Origin: Clostridia bacterium | GTDB lineage: Bacteria; Bacillota; Clostridia; Christensenellales; Borkfalkiaceae | Length of the DNA: 40,220 nucleotides | Assembly (NCBI GenBank): GCA_017408045.1 | Contig: JAFQVL010000046.1 | Coordinates: 1-40,220 of the forward strand | Direction of reading: 5' to 3' | In this document: piece by piece, positions 291-34,881 of the stretch | Layout: each line of letters opens with the position of its first letter | How positions within the stretch are numbered: the stretch's first letter is position 1 | Notes under the pieces: generated by a model | What the model was told of the DNA's origin: nothing | The model's input: the letters and a program-made list of their open reading frames with translations, nothing else | Database searches by the model: none | Position numbers and translations under genes: made by a program

Positions 291-378
291 AAAGAAATGG
301 ACTATACGAAATTTTTTCATATTCTCTCACTAAGGGTAGGCGGATTGCAATAAGCTTTCCGCCTATTCTCTTTTTTTT
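291..378 (+). ncRNA. Candidate short RNA or orphan leader
   Basis: A promoter at 256-284 is followed within about 90 bases by a terminator, which predicts a transcript of roughly 85 nt. It contains a tiny frame starting at the ATG at 297 that reads MDYTKFFHILSLRVGGLQ and stops just past the first terminator arm. There is no convincing ribosome binding site in front of it. The arrangement resembles an attenuation leader, but the next gene (733) is separated from it by about 330 bases of repeats. It may be an orphaned leader whose gene was displaced, or an independent small RNA. I do not recognise it as a known family. Confidence 0.4.
337..378 (+). terminator. Intrinsic terminator
   Basis: TAGGCGGA (337-344) pairs with TCCGCCTA (358-365), followed by a run of mostly T (366-378). 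Confidence 0.75.
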
Positions 379-388
379 CGCCTTATAT

Positions 389-700
389 GCGGCGCAATGC
401 TGCGTCGAATCTGTGCGCCTTTCAGTCGTGTACGGCATGTACACTCCCGTCAAGGTGCTCGATTTTCCTTGCCTTGCTTGCATCTAAGGCGAAAAAACCT
501 GCCTTGGCCGAGCCTAAAATCATCGCCGCAATGCAGCGTTGCGCTGCGGCAACCCTCGGTCATTTACGCTTAGTAAACTCCCTCGGGCTATTCTCGCGCG
601 CCTCGCCTTGCTTGCATCTAAGGCGAAAAACTCTGCCTTGGACGAGCCAAAAATCATCGCCGCAATGCTGCATTGCCTTTTAGCAAAGACACTTCTTGCA
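389..700. repeat. Hairpin-unit repeat block, locus 1 (two full units and one partial)
   Basis: Units begin at about 391, 525 and 659 with the shared string CGCAATGC, giving a period of about 134 bases. The first unit has a central hairpin GTGTAC-GGCAT-GTACAC near 425-441. The second has a GTTTAC/GTAAAC-type hairpin near 560-580. The third is truncated. Both full units end in the same linker, which includes TTGCTTGCATCTAAGGCGAA. The block is clearly related to the one at 34341-34881, although the linker differs. It fills most of the 535-base gap between the flavoprotein fragment and the amidase-domain gene. Open frames across it are by-products of the repeat. Confidence 0.8.
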
Positions 701-21059: not shown

Positions 21060-21616
21060 TAAGCTGACATGACTTGAATCATTTAGGTTTTGACGGCGAG
21101 AAATCCCCTAACTGTTCAGGATTTCCTCTTGCAATACGGGCAGTATTCCTGCGCGAAAATCCTTTCATTTAAGAAATTTCGCGCTCGTGAAAACTGCAAA
21201 GCATCTTAGCCGGACAAGAGTAATACAAACCTGCTGCAATGCGCGCCATTTTCTTAACTTTCGGCAAATCCGCACTTGTAGTATTGATATACAACTGCGT
21301 GCGTCTTCACCAAAATTTATCGAAATATTCACGCATTGCAGTACGCAGTAATTCTTAATGTGCTGATTTTGGATAAGACAAGGCGAAACCGCAGGGCAAC
21401 CTAAACGGTTTACCGAGGATTTCAACGCAGTATTTAGACAAAATCAGCCATTAAAAATCAGGCTTGTATTATTCTTGTCTGGCTACAATAGAGATTTTGT
21501 GATGCATTTAGGCGGTGGCGACCGCCGCCGTATCGTTATACTGCAAGGGCGCAACCGTCTTAAAGGCGCGCAAAATAACATTTTAAGACTGAAATGATTC
21601 AAGTCTTGTCAGCTTA
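21060..21616. mobile_element. 280-bp inverted-repeat element, copy A, interrupted by another element
   Basis: The ends TAAGCTGACATGACTTGAAT (from 21060) and the complementary sequence ending CTTGTCAGCTTA at 21616 are inverted repeats of about 25 bases with one mismatch. The interior matches copies B (26915-27193) and C (27787-28066), including the GGCGGTGGCGACCGCCGCC hairpin. Without the nested insert (21207-21485) it is about 278 bp, the same as the others. It encodes nothing. It occupies most of the 749-base gap between the dipeptidase gene and the radC promoter, and acts like a MITE or a structured RNA unit. Confidence 0.85.
21207..21485. mobile_element. Nested insertion element of a second family
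   Basis: This segment is absent from the other two copies of the host element. It has its own imperfect inverted ends: TAGCCGGACAAGAGTAATAC at the left and the complement of TAGCCAGACAAGAATAATAC at the right, about 27 bases with three mismatches. TA may be duplicated at the borders. Inside are further inverted arms such as GCTGATTTTG/CAAAATCAGC. No protein is encoded. It is nearly the same size as the element it interrupts. Confidence 0.75.
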
Positions 21617-34131: not shown

Positions 34132-34329
34132 ATGAAAGAAAATTATATGGTATGTAATTGTATGCAGGTTAGTTATAATAGCATTGCTGCCGCTTTGGAA
34201 GGGCACACGAAGTTCGAGGACGTCCTGCAACTGTTTGACGTTGTGCAGGAAATCACGCATTGTTCTACTGGATGCGGCGGATGTCATGATAAGGTGTTGG
34301 AGGTAATCTCCGAAATCATGATGAGCTAA
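34132..34329 (+). CDS. BFD-like [2Fe-2S]-binding small protein
   Basis: This 65-residue protein has the arrangement of bacterioferritin-associated ferredoxin-type domains: VCNCMQVSYNSI near the start and HCSTGCGGCHDKV near residues 43-55, giving four Cys (CxC and CxxC). The remaining helices resemble the Fer2_BFD fold. It probably carries an iron-sulfur cluster and passes electrons or senses iron. The start is uncertain: the ATG at 34132 follows TAGGATTATT, but the ATG at 34147 is also possible, and AAGGAG lies farther upstream near 34110. It is 42 bases after yitT and may be co-transcribed. Confidence 0.75.
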   Translation: MKENYMVCNCMQVSYNSIAAALEGHTKFEDVLQLFDVVQEITHCSTGCGGCHDKVLEVISEIMMS

Positions 34330-34340
34330 TTGCCTACAAA

Positions 34341-34881
34341 ATACGGCGCAATACGGCGTTGCGCTGTGGCAACCTTCGGTCGTTTACTCATAGTAAACTC
34401 CTTCAGGTTTTCCTCGCGCGCCTTGTCTTGCTTGCATTTTTTAACGGCAATGCCTACAAAATACGGCGCAATACTTTGTCGAACTTGCGTTTTCCCTCGC
34501 TCATTTACGTTTGTAAATGCCCCGTCGGGAAAGCCGCGTTCTTCGCGTCTTGCTTGTATTTTGCTACGGCAATCCCTACAAATACGGCGCAATACGGCGT
34601 CGAACCTGTGCGCCTTTCAGTCGTGTACGGGTAGTACACTCCTATCAAGGTGCTCGGTTCTCCTTGTCTTGCTTGCAACTGCAACGCAAAAAAATACACT
34701 ATGGTTGGGCTTTGCATAGGATTTACGGCGCAATACGGCGTTGCGCTGTGGCAACCTTCGGTCGTTTACGCATAGTAAACTCCTTCAGGTTTTCCTCGCG
34801 CGCCTTGTCTTGCTTGCAACTGCAACGCAAAAAATACACTATGGTTAGGCTTTGCGTTGGATTTGCGGCGCAATACGGCGA
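34341..34881. repeat. Hairpin-unit repeat block, locus 2 (four units and a stub)
   Basis: Units begin with TACGGCGCAATAC at 34342, 34462, 34583 and 34724, and a stub starts at 34864, giving periods of 120, 121, 141 and 140. Each carries a central hairpin: GTTTAC-TCATA-GTAAAC in unit 1, CATTTAC-GTTT-GTAAATG in unit 2, GTGTAC-GGGTA-GTACAC in unit 3, and GTTTAC-GCATA-GTAAAC in unit 4. Units 1 and 4 are nearly the same. Each unit contains GTCTTGCTTG. The linker of units 3 and 4 holds CAACGCAAA with a matching TTTGCGTTG (exact in unit 4). No real gene lies here; the region separates the BFD gene from the YwaF-like gene. Confidence 0.9.

Follow-up and report, generated by a model that had tools for sequence, protein, structure and literature searches.

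A tandem array of hairpin units near one end of a 40,220-nt window (the whole stretch of DNA that was analysed) from a Clostridia bacterium raises the question of what kind of repeat keeps its fold while changing its stems, and how it has come to spread. The first-pass annotation described four tandem units of 120-141 bases, which is correct and even understated: CGGCGCAATAC begins at 34343, 34463, 34584 and 34725 (spacings of 120, 121 and 141), and a fifth, truncated start lies at about 34865. With up to two mismatches, TACGGCGCAATAC has 11 occurrences in the window where 1.5 are expected, and none of 100 shuffles reaches that number; TTGTCTTGCTTG occurs 14 times against 3.9 expected. Four complete units (34326-34834) and part of a fifth make up the main array, and the window has two further units at 372-630:

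372..498, plus strand: first unit of the second array, outer stem TTCGCCTTA/TAAGGCGAA, core B; covariance model R1, 98.0 bits
506..630, plus strand: second unit of the 372-630 array, core type A; R1, 102.3 bits
21352..21457, minus strand: weak match, 32.7 bits, the sole disagreement with GC skew among 41 matches in the genome
34132..34329, plus strand: host gene of the main array, a 65-codon co-directional ORF read from the sequence, shorter than the 80-aa limit applied to ORFs
34326..34453, plus strand: unit 1, arms of type II (GCCTACAAAAT / ATTTTTTAACGGC), core type A; R1, 120.3 bits
34446..34575, plus strand: unit 2, arms of type II, core type C (CATTTAC/GTAAATG); R1, 89.2 bits
34567..34694, plus strand: unit 3, a mosaic of 5' arm II and 3' arm Ib, core B (GTGTAC/GTACAC, GAACC/GGTTC); R1, 87.8 bits
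34708..34834, plus strand: unit 4, arms of type Ib, core type A; R1, 120.2 bits
34829..34880, plus strand: truncated fifth unit, beginning only, a copy of spacer and 5' arm with 92% identity to 34689-34740; repeat family D3

The TAA of the 65-codon ORF (34327-34329) falls within the first positions of unit 1, and unit 372..498 lies directly 3' of the T-run of an intrinsic terminator. The match at 21352..21457 is possibly a degenerate copy or a chance match. All three annotated central stems (GTTTAC/GTAAAC, CATTTAC/GTAAATG and GTGTAC/GTACAC) were confirmed, together with GAACC/GGTTC of unit 3 and GAATC/GATTT of the unit at 388. Simple recent duplication does not explain the four array units, whose cores differ and whose outer arms are mixed. 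Exchange of central stems, which the annotation had proposed, is real by simple motif classes: in this genome outer arms of classes Ia and II are found with all three cores (A, B and C), class Ib with cores A and C, and class III with core A, in a grouping where 13 of 29 distinct units could not be placed in both classes.

Each unit is one long imperfect hairpin with internal loops between stems, which follow in the order outer stem, ATGC/GCAT, GCAA-T-AC/GT-C-TTGC, GCGC/GCGC, a variable middle stem and the loop stem TTTAC/GTAAA. Pairing was assessed in an alignment (A1) of 49 hand-picked units, aligned with MAFFT without structure and drawn from 85 rows, many of them the same unit read on both strands; model R1 was built from A1. 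In A1, 83.1% of the cells are paired against 68.7% after shuffling, and the covariation score is 0.383 against 0.155; none of 500 shuffles reaches either value. Two weaker measures are two-sided change at 23 pairs against 20.0 (reached by 6 of 500 shuffles) and further pair types, 60 against 57.3 (114 of 500). The source rows of A1 were required to carry the outer motifs, with up to one mismatch each, and the loop-stem pattern; selection therefore favours helices 3 and 6, but not helices 2, 4 and 5. Two-sided changes occur at all four pairs of helix 4 (95.4% of cells paired) and of helix 5 (91.8%), and at three of the four pairs of helix 2 (88.8%). The outer helix is paired in only 49.0% of the A1 cells, partly because of register shifts between copies. 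Alignments A2 and A3 were fitted to R1; in A2, with 97 distinct rows, two-sided changes occur at 28 of 31 pairs, the score is 0.545 against 0.166 after shuffling, and the outer stem is paired in 82.9% of the cells with two-sided changes at all eight pairs, as fitted. This stem provides the terminal inverted repeats expected of a miniature inverted-repeat element (MITE), although its sequence, which a classical inverted end would keep constant, varies from copy to copy. One mismatch, T27.C106, is kept in 49 of 49 A1 units.

Folding of single units as RNA, one of the checks suggested with the annotation, is better than in shuffled sequences for only part of the strands (z from -1.06 to -3.92), and folding energy alone is therefore weak evidence. 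The comparative evidence for preserved pairing is strong, and all stems in the alignments vary with compensation, the supposedly fixed frame included. The annotation's preserved fold is thereby strongly upheld in a much larger set, where pairing is kept despite the changes; its fixed frame holds among the array units of the window but not family-wide, GCAATAC/GTCTTGC being found elsewhere as GAAATAC/GTCTTTC or GCAATGC/GCCTTGC.

Additional loci, on which the idea of an expanding repeat depended, are numerous. Model R1 gives 41 matches in this genome (E <= 0.01) and BLAST gives 22. With up to 28 candidates scored per genome, R1 matches were found in at least 81 of 121 relatives and at least 25 of 60 genera, and at E <= 1e-6 in 16 of 196 genomes drawn from the class, other orders included. 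Gut-type Clostridia carry dozens of copies of this hairpin of about 128 bases. A motif search of genome contigs returned three stretches, two of them in one goat-caecum genome. A search by blastn for a phage or plasmid origin gave no match, and no description of the hairpin element was found in the open-licence full-text literature. Tandem expansion, the annotation's reading of the locus, does occur, since 26 of 111 sites in six genomes are arrays of 2-6 units; the other 85 sites are single units, and the hairpin repeat is therefore mainly a dispersed family.

Some neighbouring observations concern other copies and repeats. Five head-to-tail units with an exact 125-base period lie at G034:C6:277001-277627, where tandem expansion appears to be recent. 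In G254, a 4.07-Mb genome of another order in one contig, R1 matches of 44-58 bits (loci L250-L253) include several that immediately precede 23S and 5S rRNA genes in antisense orientation and recur in several rRNA operons. A second palindrome family at L009 (G000:C9, about 1860-2150) consists of short hairpins with differing stems and constant AATTCAC / GTGAATT linkers, and such linkers also occur in some of the most frequent 14-mer repeats of the contigs examined.

Copies strongly tend to start at the stop codon of a co-directional gene, or else immediately behind a terminator T-run or a preceding unit. Of 99 distinct places, the count leaves out 19 that follow another unit and two whose upstream sequence is too short; among the 78 first-in-array units left, 55 have a co-directional ORF stop between 20 nt inside and 12 nt before the unit start, 6 follow a T-run, 9 lie farther past a stop (up to 130 nt) and 8 are placed otherwise. 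TAA stops lie inside the outer stem at the junctions (TAAAACGAAG ... CTTCGTTTTA), and type I units terminate in CGTTTTA. A co-directional stop is found at the unit start in 52 of 85 cases and at the opposite end, taken as control, in 6 of 85. The upstream gene is co-directional at 63 of 67 sites with a gene call (71 loci); the loci for these stop and gene counts are mostly best-scoring matches rather than a random sample, and gene directions and strand shares come from simple ORF callers. Of 20 host proteins scanned, 19 match a family, and these are housekeeping proteins; host genes include ilvC, asnS, ruvA, tgt, yebC, ffh, queA, prmC, hslU, serS, purM, pheS, lepA, ilvE, rplA, alaS and ilvD.

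The sense bias and the stop-codon anchor favour the main rival to a DNA element, a structured 3'-UTR RNA transcribed with the upstream gene, which would terminate transcription, protect the 3' end or be processed, and whose orientation would simply be that of the gene. The 5' arm starting at the stop codon suits such an RNA, and so does the recurrence of the same host genes across genomes (11 clusters), with queA carrying the element in seven; this recurrence suggests vertical retention or a function there. The six first units behind T-runs, several of which have a terminator hairpin, speak against it, as transcription should already have ended at those places. Taken with the evidence below, the RNA reading is possible but rather doubtful.

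Vertical inheritance at fixed genes was rejected as the sole explanation: units after the same gene in different genomes are just a little more similar (mean 0.636) than others (0.591-0.592), and the site after ffh is often empty. In 30 species the ffh-rpsP spacer (L211-L240) is bare (58-96 nt) in 15 and has the element after the ffh stop in 7 by eye, three of these being scored model matches (G042, G000, G027). The spacer looks as if it were a tolerated landing site. It also holds several unrelated palindromic repeats across species, e.g., GTCATTGCGAGC... and GGTCAAGGG....

Wobble counts bear directly on the choice between RNA and DNA. In RNA, wobble pairs are expected to be far commoner than the mirror A.C combinations. 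With a strand-neutral choice of pairs, and after rows shorter than 115 nt were dropped (90 of 97 kept), the element has 137 G.T and 151 A.C among 3390 cells. At the 23 covarying pairs the counts are 53 and 80, so the preference for wobble on the transcribed strand that marks a structured RNA was not found. Controls gave 27 G.T and 0 A.C in 18 tRNAs of the fetched DNA, where ARAGORN itself may avoid A.C, and 14 G.T and 1 A.C in 30 TPP riboswitches from the same order. The main result against this absence of wobble preference is a minus-strand RNAalifold run on the element, with 83 G.T and 26 A.C; the excess is attributed to the choice of pairs, because the strand-neutral choice gives near-equal numbers. 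The 3'-UTR RNA thus lacks the wobble bias of both controls. Rfam does not help it either: at the gathering threshold nothing in the window matches except a tRNA, the best E over the array is 1.3, and membership in a known RNA family was rejected for want of a match. The most economical reading of these comparisons is that pairing is important in DNA, or that it is equally important for both strands.

Near-equal G.T and A.C would also be left by a palindrome kept paired through mutation alone. In quasipalindrome correction, template switching at replication lets one arm take up the changes of the other, and Watson-Crick compensation would arise without selection. The queA copies fit this, as their 5' arm extends into the coding sequence and the 3' arm varies along with it, mirroring the host's own coding end, which differs between species. 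Such copying would, however, erase the invariant mismatch T27.C106, and it leaves dispersal, stop-codon anchoring and fixed orientation unexplained; as the whole account it is quite improbable.

Orientation is the second feature, besides stop-codon anchoring, that the first-pass annotation missed. Local GC skew and element orientation coincide in this genome for 40 of 41 units, and for 29 of 30 sites. Among the best 150 matches of six genomes, contigs with at least two sites have 93 of their 96 sites on the majority strand, and two sites of one contig share their orientation in 139 of 144 pairs; the evidence includes a P of about 1e-6. Contigs of 374 and 317 kb have units on one strand only, which is G-rich and bears about 80% of the genes. 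On G027:C11 and on G227:C23 both orientations occur, and the orientation changes where the skew reverses. Exceptions are a 41-bit match at G027:C8:11285, which disagrees with skew, part of the matches on G108:C6, which sit where skew is near zero, and one of ten in another skew comparison (the contig of L026). Other repeats of the same DNA, in small control numbers, show no comparable lock, with ratios of 8:11, 12:3, 2:1 and 1:1 relative to skew, against 38:1 for the core pattern of this family and 40:6 for its looser frame pattern, windows with skew under |0.03| being dropped. Replication direction is approximated here by GC skew, which is no more than a proxy and also follows gene direction. 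For a 3'-UTR RNA it is unexpected that sites after lagging-strand genes are nearly missing, though about 20% of the genes are there, and that the element still follows skew in three of four cases where the 5' neighbour is on the opposite strand.

Part of the family is associated with a further kind of element. Ten copies of another leader in this genome mark composite elements with inverted ends GGCTCTGTCACATCACCTGGTTGATTT, which we take to be ISL3-like. The eight measured composites are 181-308 nt long and enclose one or two hairpin units. Both ends are present in all eight inspected, and 8-bp duplications match at 8 of 8 positions in L268 and L273, at 7 of 8 in L271 and at 3-6 of 8 in the other five. 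These are the features of an ISL3-type MITE, and at least part of the family therefore rides in a MITE of the DDE type. Composites L272 and L274 lie directly after promoter-like boxes, a position that would also suit an RNA function. The whole family could accordingly be an ordinary MITE, moved by a cut-and-paste (DDE) transposase and given its orientation afterwards by selection, for which the composites and their duplications speak. Nine of ten composites follow skew, which is unexpected if insertion is random in orientation, and ISL3 transposase (PF01610) is present in 5 of 61 genomes and was not detected in this one. Simple units lack the composite ends and clear target duplications: among 57 single units, direct repeats of 3 to 6 bp do not exceed the shuffled-pair control, and the fixed-position effects are slight both at 2 bp (20 of 57 units, the control reaching 16 at most) and at 8 bp (2 against 1). 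A fixed-length target site duplication was thus not found in simple units. For the family as a whole a DDE MITE is unlikely.

Other routes of mobilisation were also considered. A TA duplication of the Tc1/mariner kind, as seen by eye in TA-AAACG...CGTTT-TA, is weakly supported by the same 2-bp count. Mobilisation by IS200/RAYT was rejected as a general explanation: Y1 transposase (PF01797) was not detected in this 81%-complete genome (G000) and, though found in 34 of 121 relatives, was undetected in 87, several of which have at least 24 matches. Copies behind terminators and the strand lock had pointed to retro-insertion by a group II-type reverse transcriptase; this was set aside, as PF00078 occurs in 8 of 57 genus genomes and was undetected in this one.

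The hairpin, then, forms a multi-copy family with preserved pairing, exchangeable modules and constant orientation relative to GC skew. From this pattern to a mechanism we infer as follows. Taken together, the strand lock and the absence of both wobble preference and target duplication favour the folded lagging-template strand as the active form, and our leading but tentative reading, held at a little below an even chance, is an interspersed non-autonomous DNA element of about 128 bp (REP/MITE-like) acting as a single strand that folds on the lagging-strand template. Exposed there, the folded strand would be the form recognised, and past, maybe ongoing, spread would proceed by its insertion, giving one orientation per replichore and no target duplication. 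Copies would persist where insertion is least harmful, just behind a stop codon. Invariant unpaired or mismatched positions, such as T27.C106, may contact a putative protein. Tandem arrays would be secondary, arising by duplication and by insertion beside an existing hairpin, and cores may be swapped by recombination through the conserved frames. Against a single-strand element stand the failure to find a mobilising enzyme, the fact that neither a precise empty site nor a recent single-copy jump of a simple unit was seen, and the sense-to-gene bias, which also fits an mRNA function. A bolder and improbable version is a functional, replication-polar DNA hairpin on the lagging-strand template, at about 30 sites per genome, read by an undescribed protein of replication, priming, segregation or single-strand insertion. 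KOPS and Chi are short oriented motifs; if this version were true, the family would instead be a chromosome-wide set of orientation-locked structured DNA.

Folded single strands with conserved unpaired bases are the substrate in integron attC sites; the window units, 120-141 bases apart, differ in leaving no room for cassettes. As to ERIC and bcr1 repeats, which occur in different taxa, we know of no report of strand lock or wobble-free covariation. Both resemble the present unit in being intergenic and folded and in length (RU-1 of ERIC, 127 bp), as far as the cited passages describe them (PMC2759123, PMC2267715). Ends of IS200/IS605 elements are likewise folded single strands with conserved unpaired bases serving as substrate, as is proposed here, and passages on IS608 and ISDra2 describe a preference for the lagging-strand template (PMC6006769); no Y1 transposase was detected here. 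REP, BIME and REPIN sequences, moved by TnpA-REP (RAYT), are similar as intergenic hairpins in many copies and clusters, thought in the cited sections to move as single-stranded DNA (PMC3116915, PMC6006769). REPs measure 21-65 nt, have a GT[AG]G foot and are accompanied by a tnpA-REP gene (PMC6006769); in contrast, the unit here has about 128 nt, and the Y1 family is undetected in this genome and many high-copy relatives. Pneumococcal BOX, RUP and SPRITE repeats are alike in being intergenic and folded, and the BOX repeat encodes the 3'-end stop codon in 36 of 58 BOX-overlapping CDSs (PMC3049150).

Good covariation need not mean RNA, and the count of G.T against A.C is a cheap test. In the same account BOX, RUP and SPRITE mirror the coding bias of the genome, with 60.8-63.3% on the leading strand (PMC3049150), whereas nearly all units here follow the leading strand by skew; a family that is leading-strand-locked, stop-anchored and compensated without wobble preference stands in contrast to them. 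It offers a clean handle on the spread and persistence of small hairpin repeats for which no transposase is known.
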